In this document: positions 5,355 through 34,847 of the stretch, piece by piece
Layout of the letters: each line of letters opens with the position of its first letter
Numbering within the stretch: the first letter of the stretch is position 1
Origin: Isoetes taiwanensis
Lineage: Eukaryota > Streptophyta > Lycopodiopsida > Isoetales > Isoetaceae
DNA length: 64,000 bases
NCBI GenBank assembly: GCA_021234155.1
Contig: JAJEKV010000072.1
Coordinates: 248,001 to 312,000 of the forward strand
Direction of reading: 5' to 3'
Made by a program: the position numbers and the translations under genes
The notes under the pieces: model-generated
Told to the model about the DNA's origin: nothing
Database searches by the model: none
What the model saw: only the letters and a program-made list of their open reading frames with translations

Positions 5355-5906
5355 CGTGGCTCCCATAATCTATACGATGCTCCCATCGTATAAATACGGG
5401 AATTCCCCTCCGTGGCGACTACATCACCATGGAAGGCCCTGTCTAACTCAGACCACTTCGGCCCACCTCCTCCTCTACGAAATCCTATACAACAGAAGCG
5501 TACATACATGTTGACGGTCAAGGCCTCAAGATAACAGCAGACATAGATATAACATGGCGTTGGCTGGTATAGAACAATGGCTAGAGTAGTCCACTCCATC
5601 TGACCCTCATGTGCACACTTTGCAGATAGGCTGAAACATGCTATGCACGGTTGTAGCCTTACGGAGACGCAATCTCATGGAATCACCCTATGAGACTACT
5701 CCGGGTTACATCTCCCCAGGTCCGATGAGGCAGGAAATGGATAATCCCCCTCCAGGATCACAACGGTTCCATGGGTGTGCTAGAGGATACGTGCCACTAG
5801 GTGCACACGCGTCCGTACCCGACTTTAACCCCCCAAAATCTATGGACCGCCTCGGCGCACCCATCGAGCCCAGGAGTGTCTGTTATTTGGTGTTGAACCA
5901 CATTAT
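5355..5906 (-). repeat. E2 left LTR, first part
   Basis: Aligns along its length with the start of the right LTR (23704 onward): both carry ATCTATACGATGCTCCCATC and the block ending TTATTTGGTGTTGAAC. The first bases are decayed, CGTGG for TGATG. About 140 bp present in the right LTR (about 24290-24431) is missing here. Confidence 0.85.
5902..5906. repeat. 5-bp target site duplication of E1, left copy (ATTAT)
   Basis: ATTAT precedes the E1 5' LTR and recurs at 19084-19088 directly after the 3' LTR. Five bases is the expected length for Ty3/gypsy integrases. Confidence 0.95.
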
Positions 5907-7480
5907 TGTGACGTTCAGCCGCGATTATACGCTCGGGGCGTACATTGTATGCGCCACGTCAGCGTACCGCCACCCCGATTGGCGTGTACGCGTAGCGGAT
6001 AACGGTAAAAAGTAGCCCTAGGGGGCAACTTGCTAGGAGTGTTCATATATTATTAATGTGCACATGTGCACATTAATGAGGGCACACCTTTCCATGTTGG
6101 CATATTTTGCCACCTAGCCACTAAAGGCAAGTGGGGCCTTTCCAATTATCCCACATGCCAAATTGGGTAATTGGAAACCCTAGCCTAAACCCCATGTCTA
6201 TTTAGGGTAGGAAAACCTAGCTTGCTAGTTTTTTCGTCCTTAGGGTTTTAGAGCTGGGTTTTGGCTGCCCCAGGGAGCCAAAAACCGCCTCCCGTGAGAC
6301 GCAAGCCGTGCGCCATCGGTTTCCACGAGATTGATCAGCTCAGCCGGGGATGGTTGAACTTCGGGTCGGGGAGGAGCCACTCAAGGATCAGGTATTTGGT
6401 CAATTTAATAGCTTAAACCGTCTTCTAGTCATAGAATCAGTAGGTTTAGACTATTAAATTGCCCATAGTAGTTATCTAGATCTTAGATCTCGGACACTAA
6501 CTAAAGAACCTAACTCTATGATTGGATCTAGTTCTTTAGTTCTTCTGTGATATATTTGGATGATGTATTTCTGTGAACTCCTTGTATTGGGAAGGGGGGT
6601 AGAGGCCCTAAAGCTTGTAGTTGATGCTCCTAGAGTAGCCTCTCTAGCACACTGTAGATTCGGCCTGTGTACAAGAGCCACACCTGGTTGTGGGTGAAGG
6701 GGCCAGACTGGCTAAGAAGGAGATTCATGTCCTGATTCTTGAACGATCCCCCTGGTGTGTAAAGCCTACCGGGGATCATTGTGACTAGGTCTGATGGCTT
6801 ACCACTGAGTGCGGGTAAGGCATGGGCTCGACACCCGTGAAGTGGTGTACACTTTCCAGTGGGTCAATCCGAATACAGGCAGTGGCCCCTCTAGTCACCT
6901 TGAGTTAGCATGTAGATCTCTGGAGGGAGTGATCCCTACCTGCCCCATCGCCAGGCGGGAGGATGAGACCGGTGAATAGCCCCTTCGGCTATGCATCCGA
7001 ATTTCTGATCCAGGTCCCGACACTTTTCAACCTACTCGCAAAGTGTGCACGGGGAGGGGCGGATGGAGGGTGGACAACCCTATGCCATGTTCTTATGCCG
7101 GCCAAATCCATTGCCATGAATTCTCGGTCCCAGAACGAACTCGGAGACCCAAGCCGCCCGGTTATCCTTTGAGTCCGAGCCTTGGGTAGAATCCCCTATG
7201 TGATGTGCTGATCTTTGTCTATGCAGAGATATGAGGAGGACCATCCGCCGAGATGGTCCTGAGGATGTTGATGTATGTGCTACCGACATGTATGTTTACG
7301 CCCGCAGCCTAGGTAGGCCCCGAGGAGGCGGGGGTAGAATGACACCTTCACTCTTCCCACTGAGACTCGTTACGGGTGCAGTGATATGTGGAGGGCCCTG
7401 TATCAGCATGGAGCTGGTGTGGGGGAAGAACTCCTGTTTGTATACGGTGAGTGCACCGTATACGAGTAGGGGACGTCACA
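5907..7480 (+). repeat. E1 5' LTR (1574 bp)
   Basis: Starts TGTGACGTTC and ends GGGACGTCACA, so the terminal 8 bases form a perfect inverted repeat. It matches the 3' LTR along its length with long identical stretches, for example more than 50 bases from about 6391. Differences cluster in short CG-rich segments. It contains a perfect 26-bp palindrome (6052-6077). The LTR should hold the promoter and poly(A) signals for the full-length RNA; I could not fix a TATA box with confidence. Confidence 0.93.
6052..6077. repeat. 26-bp perfect palindrome in E1 5' LTR
   Basis: The two 13-base halves ATTAATGTGCACA and TGTGCACATTAAT form a perfect palindrome. It is conserved at 17657-17682 in the 3' LTR. 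It could extrude as a cruciform or bind a dimeric factor; its function is unknown. Confidence 0.9.
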
Positions 7481-7481
7481 G

Positions 7482-7493
7482 TGGTATCAGAGC
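7482..7493 (+). other. Primer binding site for initiator tRNA-Met (E1)
   Basis: TGGTATCAGAGC begins two bases after the 5' LTR end (one spacer base) and is complementary to the 3' end of plant initiator tRNA-Met. It is where minus-strand DNA synthesis starts. Confidence 0.95.
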
Positions 7494-7683
7494 AATGTTC
7501 TTGGAGACCAAGAGCAAAGCACTGACCATGTTCCCAGTAGTACTAACTTGATAGGATCCTCAAGCCTCGAAAAGTGGGAAAAATTTTTTCTCACCTTTGT
7601 AGTTATGCTAAGCTAGTAACAATTAAGTGAATTGAATTTAACAAGATTAAAAAGAATGAGCCAAAATTTTTTCCAGTGAGGTG

Positions 7684-8044
7684 GTCTCATTTCCGCTGGT
7701 GCATAAAACTAACTTTTTGTTTTGAAGCGAGGCGCAAGCTATGAGACATCGAGCCAAGAACACCAAAACATGATGAATTTGAGATAAATAATGTGGTAAG
7801 GCTAATTCTAAGGTAGGAATTAGTTAGAATAGCATGTTTTAATTACCTAAAAACCCTAGAAATGTATGAGATCTCACACCGCTACCGTCGCAAAAACTAA
7901 ACATTAGTATTGGAACGAGGCTAAGGCGTGAGACCAATGGGTAGAAAAAGTCTGAAATAAGTATAAGTTTTAGATAAATTGGTGCCTTAGCATGTTAAAC
8001 AGAGCAACTTGAGTTTTGACCTAAAATTCCCCAAGCTATAAATA
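7684..8044 (+). promoter_or_regulatory. Internal promoter A: paired inverted-repeat elements and TATA box
   Basis: TATAAATA lies at 8037-8044, about 104 bp before the ATG of the histone-like gene. Upstream are two similar elements of about 64 bp (7684-7747 and 7872-7934). Each opens with a TCTCA-type motif, has an A-rich middle (CATAAAACTAA or CAAAAACTAAA), and closes with TGAGAC. The same pair, better conserved, precedes the second internal TATA box (9494-9560 and 9691-9756). A TATA box and spaced repeats inside the element suggest that the histone-like gene has its own promoter, separate from the LTR. Function is inferred. Confidence 0.65.
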
Positions 8045-8147
8045 GATATAGAACCCCCTCATTTTTTTTCGTCCAAGCCCTAGAAATCCGCTCTCCCCAA
8101 TTTAGGCGATCTTTCGGCGCTTTTATCCGATTGACGATCCGTAAAAC

Positions 8148-9360
8148 ATGGCCCGAACCAAACAGACCGCAAGGAAGCGTCGCCCAGGCGAAACCACCAG
8201 CGCCACTGAGGCAGAGATCATTCGGAAGATGCCGTGAGAGGCTCGCAAGAGGGGGTCGCTCGCCGGACGAAGAGCAAGACACCTCCTTCATTTGATCGAT
8301 GTCTTCAACCGCCAGTGGAGGAGGGGCGAGGCCACATCTCCAAACTCCATGGACGGCGAGACGAGGGAGGTGTATGAAGAAATAGAGCGGGGAGATCCGA
8401 CAAAGAGGAACAAGCGCTGATGAGCAAGTGACGGGTTTGGAGCCAGGTGGAGGTAGCGGTGACCTTAGAAGATTCATCAGAAGTACGAGCTGCAAGTAAG
8501 AGAAGGGAGGACAAAAAGAGGAAAAAGGAAGGAGGAGGAACAAAAGACAGCAGAAGAAAAGAAGGAAGCAAAGGGAAGTTCGTGGCTGGCATAAGGAGAA
8601 CAAAGGACCGCCCGCCAAGGAAGAGGCGAACCCCAACATTATCATCAAGGAGCTGCAACTTTGACGAACCCCCAAACCCTTAGGCGACTCTTCCGATGAA
8701 GACTTCAACCCTAACAGCTGCAGGTGGAAGCTCTTCCAAGCACCCAGCGGCCGACGAAGTACACGAGCAGCCGGCACTGAAGCAACCCCACCAAGACCAA
8801 GTGCGTAAGCCCCCGAATACCGGCATGGGATAGAAAGAAGCAACCACACCCGCCGGGAAGCCTACGCCACCAAGCGTGGTGAAGATTTATGAGAGGAAGA
8901 TGAGAGAGCACCAGGCCTACATGAAGAAATGGGAGGCCTATAACAAATATTATGAGGAAAAGCGAGGGGTTAAGTTCGCCGAGGGGGGCGACCAGCGGCG
9001 GCAAACCTAAGGCCGCCACCACCGAAGCCCAAAGGTTCCCCAAGCCGCCACCCGTGAAAAAGCGGATAGGAAGGAGGTGGAGAAGAGCGTTAAAGGGAGA
9101 TTAGACACTTCCAGCCAAGAAGCCGGTCTCCTAATCCCCGTGCCCCCTTTCGGTTGGTGCGTGAAGTTATGCGTGAGCCTATAGAAACGGACTTTAGAGT
9201 CACGAGGCAGGCGCTTGGCAATGCAAGAGGCGGCTGAGGCAAAGATAGTGCAACATTTTGAAGATTCAACACTGCACTATCCCGCCAAGCGGGTAACCTT
9301 AATGCGACAAGACATGAGTCTTGCGACCGCGTAAGGGAGAATATAGAAACTTTGTTGTAA
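8148..9360 (+). pseudogene. CENH3/CENP-A-like histone H3 variant encoded by E1 (frames broken as read)
   Basis: Histone H3-family protein of about 400 residues. The start reads MARTKQTARKRR, whose first ten residues equal those of histone H3 and include K4 and K9; S10 is replaced by R. A charged region of about 310 residues follows, with a Lys/Arg-rich nuclear-signal-like stretch near 8490-8570 and an acidic DSSDEDF near 8680. The C-terminus is an H3 histone fold: LLIPVPPF (9128-9151), RLVREV (9151-9168), MQEAAEA (9221-9241), FEDSTL, AKRVTLMRQD (9284-9313), then LA and a basic tail. LLIP..PF, TLMRxD and an 18-residue gap between RLVREV and MQE match plant CENH3 rather than canonical H3 (LLIRKLPF, TIMPKD, 17 residues). 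One in-frame TGA (8235) and several one-base shifts interrupt it. The usual N-terminal helix of the fold is not recognisable. The N-terminal tail is much longer than in known CENH3. Confidence 0.8.
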
Positions 9361-9493
9361 ATAATTAAAAATTTTGTAATATAGAGCAATTTTGTGTACC
9401 TTGATGACATAAACTTGAGTAATTAGAGCAAATTAATAAGTTTTAGCTTTTATTTTCAGTGAAATAGGACATTTGGGAGCCGAGAGACATGAT

Positions 9494-9963
9494 GTCTCAC
9501 GGCTCAGCGCCTCGTCATAAAACAAAAGTTAGGATTGAAGCGAGGTAAAGGCTGTGAGACCTAATAAACTTGACCAAAACAGCTCCAAATTGACCAAATA
9601 AGGGGTGGATTACGCCTAATTTGGTGAGCCCATCACCCTTACACCATTAGTTTACCCAAATTGGACACCTTTAATCGAAATGGGACTGATGTCTCCTTGG
9701 CTTCGCGCCTCGTCGCATAAAACAAAAGTTAGGATTGAAGGCGGCAAGTGTGAGACCTCTTACCAATTCTTCACGGGACTTGTCAAAGTCACCTTCAACC
9801 CTCTTGCATAGCATCTTTTAGGTAACCTAGCCTTGTTCAAGCATCTCCTATAGTCCTCAAACTCCTATTTTGACCTCGGATAAGTTAGAATTACCCAATC
9901 CTAGGAAATTTCCAAGTCATCCAAAAATTAGGGTTTCCCCTTTTCTATAAATAGACCCGTCAC
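9494..9963 (+). promoter_or_regulatory. Internal promoter B: paired inverted-repeat elements and TATA box
   Basis: TATAAATA at 9956-9963 lies 106 bp before an ATG (10069). Two upstream elements (9494-9560 and 9691-9756) share an identical core, CATAAAACAAAAGTTAGGAT, flanked by GCGCCTCG on the left and GTGAGAC on the right; the first begins GTCTCAC, so its arms form a perfect 7-bp inverted repeat. They resemble the pair before promoter A, so the two promoter regions look duplicated within the element. The stretch 9361-9493 is the AT-rich 3' flank of the histone-like gene. Confidence 0.6.
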
Positions 9964-10068
9964 TTCTCACATAGCACCCACCGCAAATCTGCTCCTGCCC
10001 TTCTAGCCCGATTTCCTAACTCCCCGAGGCTCTTGCAACCATTTGTTACCTTCTTACGCAATTAATCA

Positions 10069-11660
10069 ATGGCAACTTCGATTTCGAGAGATGGTGCAGG
10101 CGCCCGGTAGCTCATCTTCTTGGCGAGTAGGCGTCGACCAAATCTTCAGATTTTTCGGGAAGGAGGTAGGCGTCAAGCAACCTTGCACGCGACCCCAGCT
10201 TATAGTAGAGTCTTGGCGAAGTTCCAAGCTAGGGTAGAACCCAGCGCTAGTGCAACTCCCTCCTTGTATAGGATATTTTGTTCCTAGGCGGGTCCCTGCT
10301 TGGCGGCATTAGGCGATGTCAGAACATCGCCAAATACCTCACAAACAAAGCGCGACCGCCTTTTGAGCCAATGGTCCTAGCTGTCAGCGCGGGACCAAGT
10401 ACTTCTCTTTCAACACCGCCACGGCAATCTTTCTCACCCTGCCGTCGAGAACATTGTGGGGAAACCTCTATTCCCCATGGGCGTGGATCCATTAGCCGTA
10501 GCGGCGGAGAACAACGGCTCCTCACCGCGGTATGAGCGGGGGGGCGGGGGAAGGGAAGGGAAGAAGACTCGGATGAACAGGGAACTGGGAGGAGGAGAAA
10601 CGATGTTGAGCTCGACCCGCCGAGAGGGGCGGCGACAAGCAGGCTGGGAGTGGCAAGACTCGAAAGAAGCCGCGCAGACTCACCAGTCGCCACCCCCCTC
10701 GGGTTAGGCATCACAAGCCCGGCTCCCATTATCGTCCGAAGGTGAGGAGTTTCTACCCCTGGCGACATTCAAAACCTCCGAAAGTGCGGGAAAGGGAGTG
10801 CAGGCCTGAAGAGTTGCTGCACCAACTCCGGAAGAACGGACTTGGGCGACTTCATCGTCCAGGAGAGTCGACTTTCCCCTCCAAGTAAGGGAAGCCGACA
10901 CTTACGGGAGAGTTTACCTCAGACATCCAAGCCTACAAACAACATCAGGAGATCATGGAAGCGGACAAAGGTGAGAACAAGCTACCGGCCGGAGGAAGAG
11001 TTCCTTGCTCTCGGGGAGCAGATGGGGATCCGCTATCGACCTCAAACATCCTAAGCGGCAAGCTGGGTCCAAGCGGGGAACCTCCCGGGATAGGGGGGGC
11101 GAATTCGACCTCGGGGAGGGCTTCGGCCTTGATCCAAGGACTCTGGGGGAGCTCACCACGGTGGAGGTTGATGATTTGGAAGGCGGAACCGCAGAGCTGG
11201 ATACCGAGTGGCGAGGACCCATCTCGCAACGACATTGTGGTCATTACGCTATTACACGCCATTCGATGGATGGAAGAATAGCGGTTATCCACCGCAAGTT
11301 CACCCCCAGGCGAGGAAGGAGTATCGTTGGCGATTGCACTCTCGGGATTGGCCGGCATGCACGGCTACCCCTTAACACCGAGTATGCAATCCCGGTGAAA
11401 AGAGCGGTAGCACTCGGCGTCTTCGACTTAGCCATACCTTCTGGCGGCGGGCAAGGCCATGTCGTGTGTGACGGCCTACACCTCCCACCATGAGAATAGA
11501 AGATTTAGCAAGAGCATTCTGGGGTGGATCTCCGGCCAATGTCCTTAGGAACTTGGGCCATTCGATTGGGAACAGCCCAAGTGAAAAAGTTCTTGGAGGA
11601 TAATCCATCTTACAAGGCATCCTTGGCGAAGTGATTAGCGGTAGTTGCAAGTTCTTGTAT
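10069..11660 (+). pseudogene. Second internal unit of E1, product unknown
   Basis: The ATG at 10069 follows promoter B and opens a frame starting MATSISRDGAGA, which is soon interrupted. Coding character continues in changing frames for about 1.5 kb. Readable pieces include PEELLHQLRKNGLG near 10807, DIQAYKQHQEIMEADKGENK near 10922, DPRTLGELTTVEVDDLEGG near 11130, and DIVVITLLHAIRWMEE near 11231. I recognise no domain and saw no histone fold. The segment is GC-rich and ends before an AT-rich stretch (11660-11720) that could carry a poly(A) signal. It may be an accessory protein, a gag extension or a captured gene. A TATAAATG at 11700 might start a third unit; this is weak. Confidence 0.45.
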
Positions 11661-11806
11661 TAGTGTAATATAAAATATAAATATAACATTCTCTTGCACT
11701 ATAAATGTTTTGTTGATACATTTTGTGTCCCCTCAACCATGCCAACAAACATAAATAATGCAAGAAAGCAAGGAAAACTAACCATGTAGATATGAACCAC
11801 TTGTGT

Positions 11807-13192
11807 ATGCAGCTAGAGGCCTGGCCTTGAGAGAGAGCGACAAGCTACTTCGGGAACTTCTGAGGGAACAGAGCCCGCCCGAGGCCACGCCCGGCAAGGA
11901 ACACGCTTGAAGAGTTTGGACAAATGACTCTTAAGAAGAAATATCGCTTAAATGAGGACAGACCTCTCGAGCGGATAAAGGCCTTGCTAGCCGCATGGCG
12001 AGGAGCAGGTTCGGTGGGTAGCTCTCAACTGCCGCCAAGCATCATTTCGAGGAACGGTAGAGACAGGGAAGAGGAGCAAGAGAGGAAGGTCCCCGGCTTG
12101 GACTCCTCAGGCTCAAGCTCGGTCGGACTCAGGTTCCGAGGAAGAAGAAGAGAGAACCAAGTCCGAAAGCGGCGAAAGGCGGAGGAACCACCCGGAGGGA
12201 CGACAAAGGACACAAGAACCTCGACTACCGTAAGAAAGTAGACTCTGCATTGGGAAATGTTTGGAAGGCCGGGAAGCTCGAGGCAATTCTCAAGGCAGAA
12301 CAGGTGGTCGCATGGAAGCGAGGAGGCTTGGCTTGACGAGATGAGCGAATCACGGCAATGCCTATGGTATGAAGGATAAGGATAAAGGCGGGGTGGCAAC
12401 AAATAACTCAAGGGAGCAACGCATTTGGTGGAAGGGCTATGCCAAGGCTCATGGCTTAAGCGAGGGGATGCTTGCGTGTTCAAGAAGTTTGCTAAAGCCT
12501 TCAAGCGCCATTACGTTCCAAGAGAGCACAAGTCCAGCATGATGCAGTAGTTCTACAGGTTGCAGCAAGGCAACAAGTCAATCTTAAATACAATGGAGGA
12601 ATTTATGAGGCTAAGGTTTTGTATGTGCCAAAGTTAGGTGAGAAGCATGCGTGGAAAGCTACATTGAAGGTCCGAATGAGGGAGATCCGCGTAAGCTTGT
12701 AAGGGCAATAAACCCTAGAAGCGGTATCGGGAAGGCGGAGTCCAAGGCAATAAGCTTGCAAGGGACAGGACCTCGGGGAATGAAGGGCGAGGCAACAGAT
12801 ATTACCAAGATAAAGGCAAAGGCAAAGCGGCGTTTTAGCAGGAGAACGGCCGGCCCGGGACCAGCTAGAGCCCCATATAGTGGCAATCAAGGGAAACAGC
12901 GGGGAAGAAGCGAGGTGTCCTTCAAAGACAAGCGGGAAGGGTCAAACTACTCCAAAGCGGTCGCGATCCTTTCGCAGGAGCCATGCCCAAGAAAAAAGAG
13001 AGCGAGTGCATAGAAAGCGGCTTTGCTTCAGGTGTTTCCAGCCGAGGCCATAGGGCGGCAAACTGCCCATATGTCATGAGTGCAATAGCGCGCGAGTTGG
13101 GAGATTGGGACACTAGGACCCGACGCGGCGGCGGCGGCGAGGAGGCCCGCGACTACATTCAGGGGGTGAGTGTCATATCTTTGCCGCAATAG
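11807..13192 (+). pseudogene. E1 gag (capsid and zinc knuckle), frames broken
   Basis: Structural protein that packages the element RNA. A basic N-terminal part (readable 11924-12241) precedes a retrotransposon-gag capsid segment near 12480-12615, with FKRHYVPREHKSS followed by RLQQGNKSI and MEEFMRL, the usual pattern of PF03732-type capsids. A basic linker follows. A CCHC zinc knuckle then reads in two frames, CFRCFQ near 13027 and GHRAANCP near 13045. The frame changes several times. The start is uncertain: ATGs at 11807 and 11924 are both possible. Confidence 0.7.
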
Positions 13193-13199
13193 ATCACAG

Positions 13200-15099
13200 A
13201 GCAAGCGAGAGCCCGGTATAAAGTAATTTCCACCGATGGGAAAGGCCAAGGCCAAGTCATTTATAGTCCTAATAGATTCGGGGAAGTAGCCATAACTTTG
13301 CATCTCGGAATGGTTCAAATGTTGAAGTTGAAACCATTAAAGTCAAAGCCAAGGCCCGTTGTCTTAGCAAGTGGAGCGATAAGGCGCGGGCGGCGGTAAA
13401 AGAATCAACTTTGACATCGACTTGCTTAGGGGATTAAGATCCGGATGGGGGCGGAGGTAATGAGCATCGGCAAATATGACTTGATAATAGGTATGGGTAC
13501 CTTGGACCAGCGAGGGGCCATTATTGATTGTGGAAGCGGAAGGTGACCTTCCCAACACCCGACGGCAAGATCATTGAGATAACAGGTAAAGAAGTTGTCC
13601 CCATCATGCGGTGTATGTCTTCTAAGCGGTGTTCAAGTGCATCAAGAGTGGCGGTAGCATACATCTTCAAGCTTGAGATTAGTGAGCGAATTGGAAGGAA
13701 GCAAAGAAGACAAGATGCTCGGCAAGTTGCCGAGGCAAATAGCTAAGTTGATCACGGAGTTCCGATCGATCTCTTTCGGATGAGATCAAGCAGCTCCCTC
13801 CTTATAGGGAGTCGAGTGCGAGATAGCACTTTCGAGCAGGGAACAAAACCGACAAGCAAGGCTCCATATAGAATGACAAGCGAGGAGTTGCCGGACTAAA
13901 AAGCGATTCGGGGAGCTGCTTTCGACCTAGGTTTCATTAGACCTAGTGTCTCGCCGTTTGGGCGCCCATTCTTTTTGTCAAGAAGAAGGATGGATCTTTG
14001 AGAATGTGCATAGACTATAGGCGGTTGAATAAGCACACCATTAAGAACAAGTATCGCTTCCAAGATCGAGGCGACTTGATGGATCAGCTTCAAGGAGCAA
14101 AAGATCTTCTCAAAATCGACTTAAGGTCGGGGTTATCATCGAGATACGGATAAAGGAGGAGGATATCCACAAGACCGCCGGGGGCCGTGGTATGGGCATT
14201 ATGAGTTCCACGGTGATGCCTTTCGGCTTATCAAATGCCCCATAGCGTTCATGAGGCTCATGAGCGATATCTTGAGGAGTTCCCGGACACCTTTGTGATT
14301 GTTTTCTTTGATGACATTTTGGTGTATAGCAGATCCTTGAAGAGCACGTGCAACACTTGAGAAGGGTGCTAGAAGTTGAGGAGGCACGGTTATGCGCCAA
14401 GTTGCCGAAGTGCCACCGCCTTGAGAGAAGGTGGAATACCTTGGTCATGTGATCTCGGAGGAAGGCATCTCGGCGGACCCGCCAAGATTGAAGCGGTGAT
14501 TCGGTGGGGCGGGCGCCGAAGAATGTGCGCGAGGTCAAGTTTTCTCGGTCTAGGGTACTACAGGAAGTTCGTGAAGAACTTTGCTAAGATAAGCAGCCAG
14601 ATTAACGGAACGACGAGGGCGAGAGAAGGTGAAAGATTGGGTAGAGCATTGGCACAAGAAAGCCCAAAAGGATTTGAATTGTTGAAGGAAGCTTTAACAA
14701 CAGCCCGATCTCTTAACCCTAGGACCCGGAGAAAGATAAGCTTGTAGCAAGCGGATGCGAGTAAGATAGCTACAGTGCGGTGCTTATGCAAGAAGCGTGT
14801 GGTAGCGTATGATTCGGGGGAAGATGAGCGGCGCCCGGGGCGCTACCCAACGCGCCGCGATCGAGGGAATTGCTTGCGGTTGTCGGGCGTTAAGAATATG
14901 GAGGCACTACCTCTTGGGAAGGAAGTTCCAATTGGATACCGACCATCGAGCCTCAATATGTATTCACATAACCACACCTCAATCTGAGGCGTGGAGATGG
15001 ATGGAGTTCCTCGAGGAATACGACTTTGATATAGTCTACAAGCCGGGGAAACTCAATGTGGTAGCAGATCGCGCTTTCAAGGCATCCCCCGACAACTAG
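13200..15099 (+). pseudogene. E1 pol, part 1: protease, reverse transcriptase, RNase H
   Basis: Domains follow gag in gypsy order. Protease: the FIVLIDSG active-site block near 13258-13282. Reverse transcriptase: [20 protein letters not shown] (about 13964-14025), then MPFGLSNAP near 14216, and the catalytic FFDDILVYS with the Asp pair at 14310-14315; FLGLGYYRKFVKNF closes the domain near 14541. RNase H: its end, YDFDIVYKPGKLNVVADR, lies at about 15019-15072. Every block is clear, but frames switch about every 100-200 bp through small indels. The enzyme copies the RNA genome into DNA in the virus-like particle. Confidence 0.85.
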
Positions 15100-15249
15100 A
15101 GTGCATTGCAGCGCAATTTCGGCGCTCTCCGGCGACTTTGGTAAGAGGATTGAAGAGTCCTTGCCAAGCGGATGTGGATTCGAGGGAAGTATGGGCAAGC
15201 CTCTCTAAGGAGGCTAGAACGGATAAAGAGCGGGAGGCCTTCAAGCATT

Positions 15250-16635
15250 ATAAGAAGGAAGGCAACCTGTTATACCATAAGAACAAGTTGTGCGTGCAGA
15301 ATCATCAGGTGTAAGGAAGTTGATCCTCCATGACGCACAACAGCCCAATAGCTGGCCATGCGGGATTCATGAAAACATATTTCAAAGCGCTTGGCGGCTA
15401 TTATTGGCCAGAATGAAGAAGCAAATAGCTCGCTACATCAAGGAATGTCAGCTATGCCGCCAGACGAAGGCCGAGCAGCTTCGAATTCGGGGGCATTAGA
15501 GCCATTAGCGGTGCCAAATGCTAAGTGGGAGGTAATCAGCATGGATTTCATCACGGGACTCCCAAGAACGGCCGAGAGGCAAGGATGCCTTGATGGTAGT
15601 GGTCGACAAGTTGTCAAAGATGGCACATTTTGTGCCTTGCGGGACCACCAGTCTGGCTATGGATACTGACAAAGCTCTTCACCAAAGAGATCTTAGGGCT
15701 TCATGGCATGCCAAGGAGATTATCTCAAAGCGAGGAGATCCGAAGTTCATGAGTGCCTTTTGGCAAGACCTCTTTGCGACAATTCAGACCAAGCTATCCA
15801 TGAGCACGGCGTATCATCCTCGGGCCGGATGGCGGACGGAGCGGACCAACAGGATCTTAGAAGACATGCTCTGAAACTATGTGCGGAATAAGCAAAGTAT
15901 GTGGGAAGAATTTATTCACTTGGTGGAGTTTGCATACAATAGCACCAAGCGGGGAATCGTCCCAAATGTCGCCATTTATGATCAATTATGGCTATCGGTG
16001 CCTAACTCCGGACACTTGGCACAACCCGTGTCAAAAGTAGAAGTTTCGCAGCCGGATGTTGGCCGATATGCGGCGGCTTCGTGGAAGAGGTTGAGGGTAT
16101 CCGCTAGCAGCAAGAAGTCGACAAAAGAGCATCACGATAAGCATCGAGCAGTAAGAGAGTTCAAAGTTGGAGATGATGTATGGCTCAAGATAAAAGGTGA
16201 AGCGGTGGCTTCGGGATTGGCAATTGCAAGAAGCTTGCTCCAAGGTGGGCTGGACCCTTCGGAATAATCAAGAGAGTAGGTAATCAATCCTACAAGTTAG
16301 AATTGCCAAACACACCTAAAGATTCATAAGGTCTTCCACGTGAGTTTGTTGAAGAAGCATACTCCAAATCAGACGAAGTTTTGGACACTCCAACGTTGTT
16401 GGAAATGACGGAGGAGCAGCTGGAAATAGTTCCAGAAATGATTCTTGATAGAGCTTTTAAGAAGACAAGGAGGTCCGAATTCCTCATTTATTTGGTCAAG
16501 TGGAAACACTTACCGATGGAAGACGCCACGTGGGTACTTAAGAAGGATTTGGTAAAAGCGGTACCCACGGTTTATGGAGCAATGGGGCCGGCAAGGTCAT
16601 CTCGAAGAAATCGCTCGGGCATGTCGACGGCGTAG
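15250..16635 (+). pseudogene. E1 pol, part 2: integrase with C-terminal chromodomain
   Basis: Integrase inserts the cDNA into chromosomes. The N-terminal zinc-binding domain is visible as GHAGFMKTYF near 15354 and CQLC near 15448. The catalytic core shows the first Asp in MDFITGLP (15541), the second in RGDPKFMSAFWQDLF (about 15731) and the Glu in TERTN (near 15838). The C-terminal chromodomain reads FLIYLVKWKHLPMEDATWVL (about 16480-16540). It belongs to the chromovirus class that contacts histone H3 tails and steers insertion to particular chromatin. This matters here because the same element encodes an H3-like tail. Frames are broken in the core; the chromodomain frame (16381-16635) is open. 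Confidence 0.87.
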
Positions 16636-17500
16636 GTTAATTCTTGTATAGATTAATCTACGCATGCAACCTATGCTTGGTATGGGTGCATCTATTTGCC
16701 GTTGGAGATGATGAGACCACTACGGTGATCTCTAGGGCGTGGTGTAATGTCAATGTAGGCATGACCGCGTTTCCGCTTGGGCGAGTGGAAGGTAGATTAG
16801 AAAGTCTACTTCTGTCCCCACGGAAGGAGACGGCCTCGAGAGAAAAGAGGTCATTAAGGAATGCATTGATAGGAAAGCACCTTTAGCCCCATATATGCTT
16901 TGATAGGAGGAATCCATCCTTCACGCCCCCTTGAGAGAAGGATATCCTCCATGCCCAGGCAACTAGAGGTGTAGGCATGAGCGGCATATGGGCATATAGG
17001 CGCTGTCTCCCGGCCATTATGGAAGATTCATCCTCTTCCCTCGCCCGGGGAGATTAGCCATGCATTCATGTAGATAGGTGGGGTGGTCACCATATAACCA
17101 AAATTTATTAAACAATTAAAGCGGTACTAGCGTAGTGTCGGCCTGCCGAGGCGGTAGAGAGCTCTGGGGAGGGCAAGGAGGTCGAAGTTATCTAAGACTT
17201 ACAACACAAGTTTTGTTGGAATGTGTTGCAAGGAATGAAGAGTACCTCGGACGATAATTATAGATATGAAATGCTGAAATTTTGTCTAACTTAACATAGT
17301 GAATAACTTGTTAATGGTGTTATGAATTGATAAGTATTCCATAATATAATAACGTAATAATGTTCTAAAAGTAATTACCTTAGAGTAATCGCGATAAATG
17401 TATAAAGATTATATTGTAGGTATCACGTTGATTGCGAGGTTGCGGGTTAGGAAGATCCCAAGGTGGGGAGACCCCGATCTTTGCCGAGACGACATCATTT
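16636..17500 (+). other. E1 3' untranslated region
   Basis: About 865 bp between the chromodomain stop and the polypurine tract. A short open frame at 16644-16886 has no recognisable domain. A second copy of the polypurine motif, AAGGTGGGGAGA, lies at 17460-17471, about 40 bp before the functional one. Confidence 0.6.
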
Positions 17501-17501
17501 C

Positions 17502-17514
17502 AAGGTGGGGAGAA
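17502..17514 (+). other. Polypurine tract of E1
   Basis: AAGGTGGGGAGAA lies directly against the TGTGG start of the 3' LTR. It primes plus-strand DNA synthesis. Confidence 0.92.
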
Positions 17515-19083
17515 TGTGGCGTTCCGGCCGATATCGCTCCGGGGCGTACATTTATCTTGCCCGCCACGCGTACCGCCACCCCGATTGGCGGTATGCGCCA
17601 GCGGATAGCCAGGTAAGTAGCCCTAGGGGGCAACTTGCTAGGAGTGTTCATATATTATTAATGTGCACATGTGCACATTAATGAGAACACACCTTTCCAT
17701 GTTGGCATATTTTGCCACCCTAGCCACTAAAAAGGCAAGTGGGGCCTTTCCAATTATCCCACATGCCAAATTGGGTGGTGGAAACCCTAGCCTAAACCCC
17801 ATGTCTATTTAGGGTAGGAAAACCCTAGCTTGCTAGTTTTTTCGTCCTTAGGGTTTTAGAGCTCAGTTTTGGCTGCCCCGGGCCAAAACCGCCTCGAGCA
17901 GCGCCCAAGCGAATTCGCCATCGGTTTCCCTGAATTCGATCAGCTCGGCGGGATGGTTGAACTTCGGTCGGGGAGGGAGCCACTCAAGGATCAGGTATTT
18001 GGTCAATTTAATAGCTTAAACCGTCTTCTAGTCATAGAATCGTGTAGGTTTAGACTATTAAATTGCCCATAGTAGTTATCTAGATCTTAGATCTGGGACA
18101 CTAACTAAAGAACCTAACTCTATGATTGGATCTAGTTCTTTAGTTCTTACGTGATATATTTGGATGATGTATTTACGTGAACTCCTTGTATTGGGAAGGG
18201 GGTAGAGGCCCTAAAGCTTGTAGTTGATGCTCCTAGAGTAGCCTCTCTAGCACACTTTGTAGGTCGGCTGTGTACAAGAGCCACACCCGGTTGTGGGTGT
18301 GAGGGGCGGACCGGCTAAGAAGGAGATTCATGTCACGATTCTTGAGCAGTCCCCTGGTGTGTAAAGCCTACAGGGGATCATTGTGACTAGGTGCGATGGC
18401 TTACCACCGAGTGCGGGTAAGGCATGGGCTCGACACCCGTGAAGTGGTGTACACTTTCCGGTGGGTTGGTCCGAATCACGAGGCGGTGGCCCTCTAGTCA
18501 CCTTGAGTTAGCATGTAGATCTCTGGAGGAGTGATCCCTACCGCCCCATCTGAGGCGGGAGGATGAGACCTGGGAATAGCCCCTCGGCTATGCATCCGTG
18601 GGAACTCTGATCGAGTCCCGACACTTTTCAACCTACTGCAGCAAAGTGTGCAGGAGGGGCGGATGGAGTGGACAACCCTATGCCATGTTCTTATGCCGCC
18701 CAAATCCATTGCCATGAATTCTGTCCAAGAACGAACTCACGGAGACCCAAGCCGTCGGGTCATCCTTTGAGTCCGAGCCTTGGGTAGAATCCCCTATGTG
18801 ATGTGCTGATCTTTGTCTATGCAGAGATATGAGGAGGACCATCCGCCGAGATGGTCACGCGGGATGTTGATGTATGTGCTCTTGACATGTATGTTTACGC
18901 TTCCGCAGCTAGGTAGGCCCTGAGGGAGACGGGGTAGAATGACACCTTCACTCTTCCCACTGAGACTCGTTACGGGTGCAGTGATATGTGGAGGGCCTTG
19001 TATCAGCATGGAGCTGGTGTGGGGGAAGAACTCCTGTTTGTATACGGTGAGTGCATCGTGATATCAAAGTAGGGGACGTCACA
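17515..19083 (+). repeat. E1 3' LTR (1569 bp)
   Basis: Begins TGTGGCGTTC and ends GGGACGTCACA. It matches 5907-7480 with long identical AT-rich stretches and clustered differences in CG-rich segments. The 26-bp palindrome is kept at 17657-17682. The right target duplication ATTAT follows at 19084-19088. Confidence 0.93.
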
Positions 19084-19748
19084 ATTATGGCATCCACAGC
19101 CCGGTGCTCTTGTGCACAGGCTTACATCTAATGGGATTTGAGGGGTTCTAAGTAGAAGCATATCTAATCCTAGATGGCCTTTAGGTCTCTATCCCCTTTT
19201 ACCCATACAACACAGGAGGAACAGAAAGAGAGCATTCATATCCGATGCATCCATCATAATCTCATCTACAACATAAAATAGAGAGACTAATCATCCGTCT
19301 AACAAGCAAGGATTAGTTCCTAACTAGAATCTCAAGCTAATGAAGCCTATTAATTGGTATCTGAGCTAGATCTTCCATCTCTCAGGTTCTTCATGCCATG
19401 CTGGTTGAATAAGATCCTCCTCCTTCTCCAACCTCCCCAAATCGAATTGGGGCAAATTGGGGGTGGAAGCCCCAATTTGGGTGTCCCAAGTTAGCAACTC
19501 TCCCTTGTCCAATCGATTTGGGCCAAGTGTCAATGCTAAATTACTTATTAAGTAATTTAGTATTTTAGCCCTTTTAATACTAGGTTAAGCCCTAAATTTG
19601 AATTAGGGTTTAGGGTTAGGTTTCCACCTTAATAATTAATGATTGACATAGCTAACCTTAGCTTATGAATAATTAATGCACCATTAATTATTCATGGTGA
19701 CATGTCATGTATTTATACCCAAAAGGTATATAAATACGTGGAACATCA
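19084..19748 (-). repeat. E2 left LTR, second part
   Basis: Starts with the right copy of the E1 target duplication (ATTAT) and continues the LTR interrupted at 5906. It aligns with 24463-25141 of the right LTR (GGCATCCACAGCCC onward) and ends GGAACATCA. A 12-bp-stem hairpin, GAATAATTAATG-CAC-CATTAATTATTC-like, lies near 19668-19694 and recurs near 25059. Confidence 0.88.
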
Positions 19749-19750
19749 TA

Positions 19751-19768
19751 TTCTCCCCACCTTAAAAA
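19751..19768 (-). other. Polypurine tract of E2
   Basis: On the minus strand this reads TTTTTAAGGTGGGGAGAA and lies two bases from the LTR boundary. It confirms that E2 runs on the minus strand and that the left LTR is its 3' LTR. Confidence 0.85.
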
Positions 19769-20480: not shown

Positions 20481-20905
20481 CTATATGCCCATCCCCATTC
20501 CTAGGCTTGCATGATGCCTGCCGGATCTAACATTCTTCGAGATATCGGCTGGTGGCTGTGGCGCACCCCGTTTCTTTGAAGCCAGTGGTGAAGATGCCGT
20601 TGTTGGCGCATGCCTGACGTTGCCATAGGACGTAGTCCCATCAAAATCCCTCTCGAGGACTGATGTTGTATGCTCCTTTGGTAAGTGGGTCCACTTAACC
20701 AAGTAGGACAGATGATGAGTATTGCTTGTACGCATGATGGAGAAGAGCGTGTGGAACTAGTTCCACTTGCTTGTCCGTCATATCTAAGAGCATTTAGAAT
20801 CTATATAGTATCTTAGAATCAAATGTATACTTCTCCAAAAGGCTTACGTGAAGGATGTTATGGGCCTTCAGAGACCTGAATCCTCCACAGAAGTTTGCAT
20901 GTCGA
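20481..20905 (-). pseudogene. E2 pol remnant: integrase tail and chromodomain
   Basis: On the minus strand, HNILHVSLLEKY (about 20860-20825) is the typical segment after the gypsy integrase core. The chromodomain follows as SYLVKWTHLPKEHTTSVLER within the open frame 20735-20481. It resembles the E1 chromodomain (LVKWKHLPMEDATWVL) but is more decayed, with HTTSV where most chromodomains keep DATWE. Stops lie between the two pieces. The catalytic core, RNase H and reverse transcriptase are absent upstream, so E2 suffered a large internal deletion. Confidence 0.75.
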
Positions 20906-23703: not shown

Positions 23704-25141
23704 TGATGCTCCCAGAATCTATACGATGCTCCCATCGTACAAATATGGGGAATTCCCCTCCCGTGACGACTACATCACCATGGAAAGGCCCTTCGTCTAA
23801 CTCAGACCACTTGCGATGAACAAGTGCCCGGGTGAGGAACACGGAGGTGTCATTCGGCCCAAGTCCGCTATGGGAATCCTATACAGCGGAAGCGTACATA
23901 CATGTTAGCACCTAGCAATCATACATAAAATAATATACCATCACGAAGGGTGGTCCATCCATCATCATCATATACATGGCAATACAAAGTACACCGGCTA
24001 GAGTAGTCCACTCCATCGCCCCTCCCCGTGCACACACTTTGAGATAAAACATGCTATGGCGCGGTTGTAGCCTTCCGGAGATGCAACCTCATGGAATTAC
24101 CCTATGAGGCTACTTCGGGTTACATCTCCCCGGTCCAATGAGGCAAGAAGGGGATAATCCCCCTCCAGGATCACAATGGTTCCATGGGTGCGCTAGAGGA
24201 TACGTGCCACTAGGCGCACACGCATCCGTACCCGACTTTAACCCCCTAGAATCCATGGACCTCTTTGGCGCACCCATCGAGCCCAGGACATCCATATAGG
24301 CACATTTCCATGCGGCCCAGGAGGTGTCAGACCTATACCTGGCCCCAACGCGAGGACCGACTATAAGCCTAGCACACTGTAGGAGCCCCAGTAGCCACGC
24401 TCAGCAAGGCTCCGCCCCCACTTCACCAATTGTGTCTGTTATTTGGTGTTGAACTACATCGTGGCATCCACAGCCCGATGGGCTCTTATGCACAGGCCGC
24501 ATCTAATGGGATTTAAGGGGTTCTAGCTAGGAGCATATCTAATCCTAGATGGCCTTTAGGTCTCTACCCCCTTTTACCCATACAACACAGGAGGGACAGA
24601 AAGAGAGCATTCATATGTGATACATCCATCATAATCTCAGCTAGACATAAAATAAAGAGAATAATCATCCATCTAACAAGCAAGGGTTAGTTCCTAACTA
24701 GAATCTCAAGCTAACGAAGCCTACTAACCGGTATCTGAGCTAGATCTCCCATCTCTCAGGTTCTCCATGCCCTGCTGCTTGAATAAGCTCCTCCTCTTCT
24801 CCAACTGCCCCCAAATCGAATTGGGGCAAATTGGCCCTAATTTGGATGTCCCAAGTTAGTAACTCTCCCATGCCCAATCGATTTGGGCCAAGTGTCAATG
24901 CTAAATTACTTATTACTAAGTAATAAGTTATTACTTATTACTTAGTAATTTAGTATTTTAGCCTTTTTAATATTAGGTTAAGCCCTAAATTCAAATTAGA
25001 GTTTAGGGTTAGGTTTCCACCTTAATAATTAATGATTGACATAGCTAACCTTAGCTTATGAATAATTAATGCACCATTAATTATTCATAGTGACGTGTCA
25101 TATATTTATACCCAAAAGGCATATAAATATATGGAACGTCA
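23704..25141 (-). repeat. E2 right LTR (5' LTR), uninterrupted
   Basis: Starts TGATGCTCCC and ends GGAACGTCA. It is about 1438 bp and aligns with both parts of the left LTR. Because it is uninterrupted, its segment around 24449-24470 shows the E1 target site before insertion (GAACTACATCGTGGCATCC against GAACCACATTATGGCATCC). A large palindromic tract of TTACTTATTACTAAGTAATAA type at about 24903-24956 is expanded relative to the left LTR (about 19538-19562). Confidence 0.88.
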
Positions 25142-26047
25142 CATGCATACCCTTTATGGATAACTCCAACTTGCAAACCGTCATTCAACTTATACGTTGT
25201 GTGATGAACATCAACACAATAAATTCTACATTGCCTTTGTGATATCTCCAAGTCGTTACTCAAGAATAGCTCAGACCTAAAAATTGATATAGCTCTCAGA
25301 AAAATATACATCTTCTGCAAAAGCCTATTGCCAAATCAAGGAAGGCGGAACTAAAAAATGCAATTGCCTACTTGACATCCATCTTTAAAGAGTTTCTATG
25401 GACCTTGGAACATTTCTGCTTGATGAGGCTTTTGCCAGGAGCCATATAGGTACTTTATTCTTCTGCGCCAGTCTGCAGTGCACTACATCCAAACATCTGA
25501 GCAGTAAAGGTGATGGTTACATAGTTCAATTTAAAGTTTTCAGATAATGTATGATGTATCACGAAATCAAAGCCAGGCAGACAAAATGTTTACTTGATAT
25601 AAATAATAGAATGGAATAGACGAAACATGTCTTTGAGCCAAAAAAGCCCCAAATAGGCATATATTCATCATAAAAAAAATGAAGTCAAAGAGTCAAGTGG
25701 AGGGCCAAAAAGACCCGCGTTTAGAGAAATACTTTAGACTGCCCTCACCCAAGAAAGGAGTGAGGCTTACAAAATGGAGGCTAAGAAATGGTGTGGATTC
25801 GTCGATAGGCAAAATCGTTCAGGATCGTTTCTGGCATGCATTGATCTAGTGAGGGCAGAATAATAACTAATTATTTAACAGCCTAAAATGAAAGTATTAA
25901 CACACAACAAAAGCAATGGTCAAGATTGCACACAAACTTTATTTATGTATAGAAGATATATTGACATGGATATGTGAAAACCTTAGGCCAAATGCCCAAA
26001 ACACACCATGGTCCTTTCTAGATTAATACACACATAGAAGTTTGACT
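25142..26047. other. No recognisable gene
   Basis: A minus-strand open frame (to 25320) running into the E2 LTR reads like ordinary protein (QRQCRIYCVDVHHTTYKL), but I recognise no family and see no extension. It could be a fragment of a host gene interrupted by E2. Confidence 0.3.
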
Positions 26048-29302: not shown

Positions 29303-31520
29303 TCAACAGACAATTTGATCAAAGCAGCGGCTGCCTACTTCCCTATTATCATGTGTTCTACAAGCAGAAAGCAAACTTGTCCAACCTGTAATATTAGTTT
29401 GTACAGAGGACTGAAGTAAAGCTTCAGCCTCCCAAAGAAAACCTGCACGACTCAGCAAGTCCACAATACAATTCAAATGAGAATTAACTGGCATAATACC
29501 ATAACAATTTGTCATTAAATTAAAGAACCAGCGACCTTCATCTACCAGGCCTGCTCGGCTGCATGAAATGAGGATGCTAGCAAATGAGGCCTCATCTGGA
29601 TTTAGACCCTCCCTTTCCATTTTTTCAAAATATTGTAGACATGAAGGGCCATCCCCATGCTGGGCAAATCCAGCAACCATTGTATTCCATGATACCATGT
29701 TCCGACTCGACATTTTGTCGAAAACTTTGTAAGCTTCCTCCAGGCAACCACATTTGGCATACATATCAAGAAGAATGTTTCCCCACAATAGTATCTAACT
29801 GTGCTCTGCACTTTGTGATTTGTTAGGCGGAATTAATCTGCCTTGCTCAGTTGCACCCATCACAGCGCATGCTTTGAGGACACTTAAATATGTGGCTTCA
29901 CTTGGCTTGATGCTTTCTTGCATTTTATCAAAACAATGCAAAGCAAGCATCCCTTCTCCATGCTGGGAATATCCTGCAATAATGGCATTCCATGAGGAAA
30001 CATTTGGCATTATACCTTCTTGCTGCATTAAAACAAGATATTTCTCAGCCACTGGACCTTGCCCATTGTGACTGTATCCTGCAATTATGGCATTCCAGGT
30101 GATTATATTTCGATACTGCGTACACTGAAAGATGGTGTATGCGTCATCTGAACTTCCACATTTTGCATACATATCTACCAATGCACTCCCCATAACAACA
30201 TCCAGTTGGATCATAGATTTCATGATCTGCGCATGAACAAGCTTTTCCTTTCTCCTTTAATCCAACAACTGAGCATGCTTTCATGATGTTTACAAATGTT
30301 ATATTGTTTGGCATTATTTCAGCCTCTTGCATAGTTTCAAAGCATTCTAGAGCTAGATGAGCTGTGTCACCATGCTGAGAATATCCTCCAATTAGTGCGT
30401 TCCATGATTCTATGTTTGCTTTTATGCCTTCATGTTGCATTTTCTCAAAGCATGTTTTGGCCTGAAGGGTACCTTCATTCAAGGAATATGCTGTGATCAT
30501 TGCATTGAAAGATATAACATCTCTATCAAACAACCTAGTAAAGACTATGCATGCTTCATTCAAATACCCACAAGTGGCATACATATGGATCAATGTACTT
30601 CCAATAGAGACATCCAAATGATGTCTGCTTTTTATAACAGCCCGTGAACGATCCTGCCCACCTCAACTGCTCTCATATTGGCACATGCTTTTAAAATGCT
30701 ATAAAATGTCACTTTATCTGGATCTATGCCTTCCTGTTGCATCCGATCGAAACATTGTAACGCTAATTGATCATCCCCATGCTCAACATATCCACTCAAA
30801 ACTGCATTCCAGGATACCACATTTGGCTTTAAGCCTTCCGTTTGCATTTGTTCAAAATATTTTTAGTGCCAAATGGCTATTTCCACACAAGGCATATCCG
30901 AAATAATTGCATTCCAAATTACCACATTTTGAATAGTCAATCTGTCAAAAACTTGGCATGCATCTCCTAAGGCTTCGCACATAGCATACATATGGACGAG
31001 GGTGCTTCCCATCACATCATCCAATTGGAGTTTGTTAACAATGCCCTCAGCGTGTATAATCCTTCCATGAAACAGCAATTTTTCATCATGCAAGACTTGA
31101 GGACAGCAACGTATGTATATGCATCAGTTCTTATTTCCAATATGTGCATTCTGTGGTACAAGTCAAGAGCTGTACAACATTGCCCCAGCTTAGCATTTGT
31201 TAAAATGATTGCAGCCCATGTGTATGAAGTTGGTTTCTCTATTGCATCAAATGCCCAATTAGCTTCATATAAACTCTTATGGCAAGAAAAAATCCGTATG
31301 AGATGATCGCCTAGAACAGAAATTCTATCCAACCTGTGAAGAATAAGAGACCGAGTCTTCTACCGCATTCTAAAGATTTCCGCTTCTCAGCTTCCGTAGA
31401 AGGGAGTATGCGCTGTTTCTTGTCATAACAATTCCTTGCTGTTGCATAATCTCTGCGGCTTCTAATGCATCATCCAAGAATCCCATCTCACAAAGTTTGT
31501 TAAACTCCTCAAAGAAACCT
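29303..31520 (-). pseudogene. PPR protein gene, PLS type, multiply frameshifted
   Basis: Pentatricopeptide repeat proteins bind organellar RNA for editing or processing. At least twelve repeats are readable on the minus strand in consecutive pieces: 31516-31340, 31332-31012, 31093-30863, 30847-30632, 30617-30144, 30223-29795, 29788-29303. Typical blocks are GSTLVHMYAMC, NVVSWNAVLSGYVEHGD, MQQEGIDPDKVTFYSILKAC and VDMYAKCG. The last part, WTSLLSACRTHDNREVG, belongs to the E motif; the frame then stops after FDQIVC, so the rest of E/E+ and any DYW domain are missing. Each junction needs a frameshift. There is no sign of introns. It lies 3' of the TDP2-like gene on the same strand. Sequencing error could explain some shifts but hardly all six. 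Confidence 0.85.
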
Positions 31521-34344: not shown

Positions 34345-34418
34345 GGTTTCGTGGTGTAGTTGGTTATCACGTCAGTCTAACACACTGAAGGTCTCCGGTT
34401 CAAACCCGGGCGAAGCCA
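34345..34418 (+). tRNA. tRNA-Val, anticodon AAC
   Basis: 74 bases. The acceptor stem GGTTTCG pairs with CGAAGCC (one T-G pair), with discriminator A at 34418. The anticodon stem TCAGT/ACTGA encloses the loop CTAACAC, giving anticodon AAC. The T loop is TTCAAAC. A-box TGGTGTAGTTGG and B-box GGTTCAAACCC are intact. There is no intron and no encoded CCA. It lies 117 bp upstream of the TDP2-like start codon, in divergent orientation. Confidence 0.96.
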
Positions 34419-34499
34419 TTTCTTATTTCATGAGGTCTTCTTTTGTTGTGATTTTTGTTTCGCCTTTATAATGGTTTATTTTGGTGATTTTTCTTTTAT

Positions 34500-34773
34500 T
34501 TCCATTGAAAGTCTTGTCTTTGATGAGATGTTTTATTTCCATCGATCTTTTGGAGTCTTTATCTTTGTGTAATATAGTTTTTGATTCATGTAATATATTA
34601 TTTTGGTGATTTTTGTTTTGTTTCCATTGAAAGTCTTGTCTTTGTTTTGTTTGTTTTGTTTCCATTGAAAGTCTTGTCTTTGTTTCCATTGAAAGTCTTG
34701 TCTTTGATGAGATGTTTTATTTCCATCGATCTGGAGTCTTTATCTTTCTGTAATATAGTTTTTTATTCTTTTT
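34500..34773 (+). repeat. Short tandem repeats between tRNA copies
   Basis: The unit TTCCATTGAAAGTCTTGTCT recurs near 34500, 34622, 34660 and 34684. A longer block, GATGAGATGTTTTATTTCCA to TAATATAG, is duplicated with a 184-base offset (34522 and 34706). The block continues right up to the first tRNA pseudogene. Confidence 0.8.
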
Positions 34774-34847
34774 GATTTTGTGGTGTAGTAGGTTATCATG
34801 TTAGTCTAACACACTGAAAGTCTCCAGTTCAAACCCAAGCAAAGCCA
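34774..34847 (+). pseudogene. tRNA-Val pseudogene, copy 2
   Basis: Same length and anticodon loop (CTAACAC) as the intact tRNA, 429 bp downstream. The acceptor begins GATTTTG, with a C-A mismatch, and the T stem has two mismatches (CCAG against CCAAG). The B-box is damaged, so transcription is unlikely. Confidence 0.85.

Follow-up and report, generated by a model that had tools for sequence, protein, structure and literature searches.

It has been reported that hAT DNA transposons with histone H3-like ORFs occur in Dothideomycete fungi, where, as in the E1 family described here, copies of an H3-like coding sequence have arisen through a transposable element (PMC3538342, PMC6710886). In the cited passages of these papers, Pyrenophora has 26 H3L genes, whose product has an altered tail and fully matches neither H3 nor CenH3, while Pseudocercospora has 784 H3-like copies, mostly truncated and RIP-inactivated. 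However, the fungal H3 carriers are DNA transposons, and the same passages describe neither an LTR retrotransposon nor a long fusion protein (PMC3538342, PMC6710886). In an orchid Ty3/gypsy element, a host domain was likewise gained as an extra ORF, but the domain is an m6A demethylase (ALKBH5-like) instead of a histone, and the cited passage likens the case to Ogre elements (PMC9289625). Classified plant chromoviruses have a Ty3/gypsy pol with a chromodomain and a tRNA primer site in common with E1, whereas the H3 ORF and the ORF2 that E1 carries before gag are extra to them, as far as the cited part of the classification extends (PMC6317226). Viral histones are similar in that the gene for a core histone is carried by a virus or mobile genome, but the carriers covered in the cited part of the review are DNA viruses, and the words 'retrotransposon' and 'retrovirus' are absent from its main text (PMC9145170); a 2026 review on the capture of genes by plant elements does not have 'histone' in its main text (PMC13317346). 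One published title ties a retrotransposon to centromeric histone chromatin; to judge by that title, the element uses the host CENH3, whereas E1 encodes a histone. Among the matches listed in open PMC papers, there was no retrotransposon encoding a core histone; H3-carrying transposable elements are already known as fungal DNA transposons. If retrotransposons do keep a core histone of their own under selection, a mobile element would shape nucleosome identity, beyond reading it, and H3-carrying chromoviruses would be a natural test of integration targeting, silencing and histone variants in a lineage with little-studied chromatin.

Anatomy and setting of E1

The window is a stretch of 64,000 nucleotides from Isoetes taiwanensis, whose published genome comprises 1658.30 Mb in 204 scaffolds and 909 unplaced contigs obtained with Nanopore, Illumina and Bionano; 'histone' is absent from the consulted text of the genome paper (PMC8566536). 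The features of E1 in the window are as follows:

5902 to 19088, plus strand: E1, a complete LTR chromovirus, recognised by its LTR pair, primer-binding site, target-site duplication, gag-pol homology and chromodomain
5902 to 5906 and 19084 to 19088, plus strand: left and right copies of the 5 bp target-site duplication ATTAT, flanking E1
5907 to 7480, plus strand: 5' LTR (TGTGACGTTC...GACGTCACA), matching the 3' LTR
7482 to 7493, plus strand: primer-binding site TGGTATCAGAGC, also found in the relatives L043 and L045
7678 to 7940, plus strand: two imperfect hairpin repeats (GTCTCA..TGAGAC type) 5' of ORF1, weak as structures because their fold z-scores are -0.96 and -2.15
8036 to 8046, plus strand: TATA-like motif CTATAAATAGA before ORF1, weak alone because 1.73 chance matches are expected per window with 1 mismatch allowed
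8148 to 8177, plus strand: MARTKQTARK, the histone H3 start, by translation; exact in 8 of 10 fetched relatives
8148 to 9360, plus strand: ORF1 cargo, with an H3-like tail start, a charged middle of about 300 residues and an H3 fold
9094 to 9331, plus strand: histone H3 fold in two frames, by Pfam Histone and PDB matches
9494 to 9764, plus strand: two more hairpin repeats 3' of ORF1 (first z -4.30, second z -0.19)
9945 to 9955, plus strand: second CTATAAATAGA, before ORF2
10069 to 11500 (approximate limits), plus strand: ORF2 region between ORF1 and gag, frame broken
12169 to 16593, plus strand: gag-pol homology to other H3-carrying chromoviruses, by sequence alignment
14806 to 15096, plus strand: RT_RNaseH domain (Pfam E 4.6e-8)
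16330 to 16632, plus strand: open frame with a chromodomain (PF00385, E 2.5e-8)
17515 to 19083, plus strand: 3' LTR, matching the 5' LTR

E1 is an LTR chromovirus (Ty3/gypsy), with an LTR pair whose ends are of the TGTGACGT...ACGTCACA type, a target-site duplication, a tRNA primer site, which we take to be of the iMet type, and the domain order of such elements. RNase H, integrase and chromodomain follow one another, by homology, as in the pol of L010 and L013, two loci of the second group of H3-carrying chromoviruses described below; the integrase core itself is weak in the E1 window piece (E 0.072). Identity of the E1 gag-pol to other H3-carrying chromoviruses is 25-39% over long alignments and 59% over 135 residues at the 3' end. 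Terminal inverted repeats and a hAT transposase do not characterise E1, which has LTRs and gag-pol.

None of seven pieces of the ORF2 region matched Pfam at E<=0.01, a weak match being that to DUF937 (0.066). The ORF2s of L013 and L018, also a second-group locus, are 44% identical to each other, have no clear Pfam match and gave no tblastn match in the 64-kb window. In addition, four related hairpins stand before ORF1 (7678-7752 and 7864-7940) and before ORF2 (9494-9560 and 9681-9764), of which one alone clearly beats shuffles in folding; downstream of each pair come TTTTGACCT and CTATAAATAGA, which gives the appearance of a duplicated leader or promoter module. At the position of the TATA-like site, TATAAATA is found in all ten fetched relatives. 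In the leaders of L016 and L018, a fold of about -42 kcal/mol (positions ~1400-1700 in the ORF1 orientation) lies beside CCCTAACCCTAA stretches upstream of ORF1, and these leader sequences differ from the E1 hairpins.

Another repeat encloses E1, and a second, E1-free copy of that repeat lies at ~23.7-25.1 kb; the halves around E1 correspond as 5359-5875 to 23708-24288 and 19088-19751 to 24462-25144. A fragment on the minus strand at 20640-20871 corresponds to the 3' end of the L010 pol, in the chromodomain region (tblastn E 4.8e-9).

ORF1 in the window copy and across the E1 family

A preliminary description of this DNA had placed a frame with MARTKQTARK between the primer site and gag, and an ordered H3 fold downstream on the same strand; both were found. 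At 8148-8177, the H3 start is followed by RRPGETTSATEAEIIRKMP and a stop, the frame from 8148 reading MARTKQTARKRRPGETTSATEAEIIRKMP before it ends; the remainder of the H3 tail beyond ARTKQTARK is absent from ORF1, and the ORF1 frame of the window copy is broken several times. The fold occupies two same-strand frames at 9094-9331, REIRHFQ...RLVREV...QAL and AMQEAAEAKIVQHFEDSTLHYPAKRVTLMRQDMSLA. The piece 9094-9234 matches positions 40-80 of the Pfam Histone profile (E 1.2e-3, under the curated cut-off) and the piece 9185-9331 positions 81-118 (E 8.1e-6, slightly above the curated cut-off), so that two unjoined pieces take up consecutive profile positions, in order and end to end; the remaining seven of the nine window pieces tested gave no Pfam Histone match. 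A read-through of the window fold joined by X reaches 8.6e-18; because the choice of frame for this join used knowledge of H3, the histone claim rests on the unjoined pieces and on the relatives. Of the 951 candidates in a protein search with the raw window frame, none reached E<=10; H3 and CENH3 were not told apart when the window pieces were run in BLAST; and none of 108 pattern matches in viral contigs was confirmed.

When window positions 8030-9480 were searched against the whole genome (1,658,258,908 bases, 1,110 contigs), 1,950 candidate places were obtained, of which the best 40 were scored. At least 1,448 of 1,451 bases were covered at all 40, the window included, and the segment therefore belongs to other family copies, at full length at each of the 39 other scored places (83-89% identity to the window stretch). 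The ten best places after the window were fetched as relatives. One of them is open across all 403 codons and has a complete, ungapped H3-type fold, which profile searches placed in the H3 family above chance (Pfam Histone E 2.1e-28; PDB H3 E 2.6e-26); a second has 422 open codons, but its frame does not include the true start, and the rest each have a break in the frame. Both relatives inspected upstream have the same primer site and LTR end there (L043 and L045), and downstream of them, at the expected distance, long frames resembling integrase were seen by eye (L044 and L046). Among the 40 best places of each search, ORF1 precedes the integrase/chromodomain segment by 7.07-7.32 kb on the same strand in at least eight pairs, including the window. 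The integrase segment has 6,414 candidates and ORF1 has 1,950, and therefore not every element need carry an E1-type ORF1. To judge from these sequences, an H3-family histone is a recurrent and apparently selected cargo of the E1 chromovirus family.

For the substitution comparison, nine relatives and the window copy were set against the open copy as reference, and a difference was counted as isolated when no other lay within 3 bases and it was away from indels. Isolated differences comprised 107 synonymous and 56 non-synonymous changes in the N part (pN/pS 0.14) and 27 and 6, respectively, in the fold (pN/pS 0.07), and no single-change codon was turned into a stop; with all differences counted, pN/pS was 0.38 in the N part and 0.78 in the fold, and the values of 0.14 and 0.07 come only from the isolated-difference filter, which rests on clusters being read as assembly errors. 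The contrast between filtered and unfiltered values fits real selected changes mixed with clustered errors. The differences between the E1 LTRs comprise 74 transitions and 75 transversions; they form 54 clusters (random mean 115) with 10 isolated substitutions, and 41 of the 54 clusters lie near CG (random mean 18, maximum 28). Clustering and CG excess were also present, more weakly, in both controls, namely a part of E2 (44:11), with 37 clusters against 53 at random and 9 of the 37 near CG against 3.5 at random (maximum 10), and a second E2 stretch, with 29 clusters against 43 at random and 20 of the 29 near CG against 12.7 at random (maximum 20). Decay of E1, which was first assumed from the frameshifts, was doubted after the LTR differences were seen to be clustered, near CG and about as rich in transversions as in transitions; in the window copy, the frameshifts resemble assembly errors more than they do decay, and such errors in repeats would be of the Nanopore type. 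Because the E1 LTR differences are possibly uncorrected long-read errors, reading frames and LTR ages drawn from this assembly should be treated with caution.

As for the openness and purifying selection that the preliminary description proposed to look for in other copies, one of ten is fully open and the isolated pN/pS is low, but most copies are frameshifted and the unfiltered fold value is high. These same frameshifts, in the window copy and in most of the ten relatives, together with the fold value of 0.78, are what would be seen if ORF1 were a mere passenger, either a decaying captured fragment useless to the element or an assembly chimera; such an origin is highly improbable in view of the 40 full-length places (the best 40 of 1,950), the open copy, the low ratio of isolated changes, the error-like LTR differences and the existence of a second group.

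Affinity of the fold to H3 and CENH3

Plant CENH3 has a longer loop 1 with a Trp in it, as well as motifs of the LLIP and TLMR.D type. The preliminary description had taken the cargo for a captured CENH3 with which the element could mark, find or build centromeric chromatin, and had counted an extra loop 1 residue from the 18 residues between RLVREV and MQE. This count did not survive: the frame from LVRE to QEAAEA is open in five of the ten fetched relatives (broken and unreadable in the other five), and all five have the canonical H3 spacing, with a loop 1 of H3 length and no insertion, whereas the 18-residue spacing of the window copy arises because the span crosses a frame break. The column of the loop-1 Trp is occupied by Val in the open E1-family copies. 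Motifs of the LLIP and TLMR.D type are present in the family, TLMR being shared with Arabidopsis and not with rice.

The CENH3 references were two segments only, from Arabidopsis and rice, and the host's own CENH3 was not found, so that the comparison is between the E1 family, these two segments and H3. Four columns agree with both CENH3 references against host H3 (the P of LLIP, the A of APF, and T and L at loop 1/alpha 2), others are shared with one of them (H and F of EIRHFQ, V, E, S, L and R), and seven agree with H3 against both, one of the seven being the gap column of the missing insertion; overall, the fold is identical to host H3 at 52 of 88 positions and to each CENH3 reference at 47 of 88. 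In the ML tree, the open E1-family copies group with the two CENH3 references (UFBoot 95, best likelihood). Forcing the family together with second-group or with host H3 is about 7 log units worse (AU 0.067 each), and in a first set of trees AU was 0.0486 for the second-group H3 placement; KH and SH values are about 0.09, so that placements with H3 are not firmly rejected. In a tree without CENH3, the family branches among H3 with weak support, and long-branch attraction is possible behind its grouping with CENH3. Among PDB matches, S. pombe Cnp1 chains stand first for the second window piece, while for the open protein H3 comes first and CENP-A is absent from the best 60 of 174 matches. This ranking says little on H3 versus CENH3, because the Arabidopsis CENH3 reference also finds an H3 chain first and CENP-A chimeras second and third; among the 60 best chains listed for it, none is identical to it.

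It can be seen that a chromovirus encoding an H3-family histone and the LLIP and TLMR motifs stand from the earlier reading, and that the loop-1 insertion does not; the loop-1 Trp of plant CENH3 is absent too, and the tree inclines to CENH3 (UFBoot 95) with H3 placements borderline. The columns shared with the CENH3 references, the best likelihood and the Cnp1 matches favour capture of a CENH3 that would act on centromeric chromatin, but the H3-type loop 1, the seven columns and higher identity on the side of H3, the unrejected H3 placements, the lack of CENP-A among the best PDB matches, slight as its weight is, and a reference set of two segments make it unlikely. The E1 cargo is better described, from its sequence, as a divergent H3 variant, possibly derived from CENH3.

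A second group of H3-carrying chromoviruses and the possible role of ORF1

A genome-wide Pfam Histone search gave 8,705 candidates, a number that is not an element count because the family spans all core histones; the best 150 were scored. The eight best histone loci fetched are plain H3. From the lower-ranked matches among these 150, 20 loci were picked for frames of at least 400 aa, a choice that therefore favours conserved folds. In all 20, an open frame 403-494 aa long contains an H3 fold, which is terminal in 19 and ends about 22 residues short of the end in L023; the protein measures 411-459 aa in the 18 loci with a recognised start Met. The fold is identical to host H3 at 80-86 of 96 residues, and the second-group folds form one clade separate from host H3 (UFBoot 90). 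Matches to 'histone H3' in such a genome call for caution, many of them being ORFs of transposons. Three loci were scanned for domains: in L010 these are gag, protease, RT, RNase H, integrase and chromodomain, whereas L013 shows gag to integrase and L018 protease to integrase before the fetched piece ends in each case. Thirteen of the 20 loci have the primer motif upstream of ORF1, and LTR pairs were found in L010, with the duplication CAATC, and by eye in L022, with the duplication GTGACC. Pooled pN/pS, from the 21 of 190 pairs with N-domain dS<0.8, is 0.22 in the N domain, 0.26 in the linker and 0.062 in the fold. The AlphaFold model of a second-group ORF1 was of poor quality (mean pLDDT 57.5, and about 50 or lower in the histone part), and a fold search with it returned nothing from PDB at E<=0.001.

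The N parts of the E1-type and second-group ORF1s do not align, the fold alone aligning, and relative to host H3 the E1-family fold has a single change in common with L010, at column 18; two acquisitions are therefore likely, not proved. Among L010, L013, L018 and L022, gag-pol is 87-96% identical, while ORF1 is 40-45% identical in all pairs except L010-L013 (71%), as if the second-group ORF1 evolved fast or were exchanged. Such divergence beside a conserved gag-pol might be expected of a host-interacting protein, and with the tail start that is exact in eight of ten E1 relatives it would suit an anti-silencing decoy, in which H3K4/K9 modifiers, chaperones or H4 would be tied up by the ARTKQTARK tail or by the H3 fold and silencing of the element blunted in this way; this role is rather doubtful, the tail being absent from the second-group ORF1s read. 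It is decidedly unlikely that the H3 fold serves like a nucleocapsid and packs element cDNA in the particle or pre-integration complex instead of host chromatin: a DNA-binding fold encoded upstream of gag would agree with such a function, but the gag of L010, L013 and L018 has weak zinc-knuckle matches of its own, and we know of no H3 that packs DNA without H4.

The E1-family ORF1 is probably an N-extended H3 variant that would be deposited as a variant nucleosome and serve the element from within chromatin. Behind this reading stand the element anatomy, the recurrence of the ORF, the fully open copy, the low isolated pN/pS and the distinct second ORF1 with an H3 fold. Conservation of the fold suggests that the ORF1 protein would pair with host H4 and be deposited as a variant nucleosome. 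Its most likely use would then be as a tether or address, the tail and extension recruiting host factors or the integration complex to chromatin containing the ORF1 protein; or the DNA of the element itself might receive nucleosomes that silencing treats differently. The chromodomain reads LEIVPE...KWKHL in both E1 and L010, and of the three aromatic positions for methyl-lysine (methyl-H3K9) reading two are presumably missing. In principle, these aromatic residues of chromodomains read methyl-H3K9, according to the cited part of the source (PMC6317226). Because two of the three apparently are not there, a histone partner of the element's own could, as a conjecture, fill the targeting gap. More tentatively, it is possible that two chromovirus groups, each with its own H3 variant and probably by separate acquisition, build nucleosomes identified as their own, for use as an integration address or a silencing shield, and that one of the variants may descend from CENH3.

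Elsewhere in the window, PPR-like open frames were seen by eye on the minus strand at 29303-30662, and two tandem tRNA-Val (AAC) predictions lie at 34345-34848, the first alone passing the Rfam threshold.
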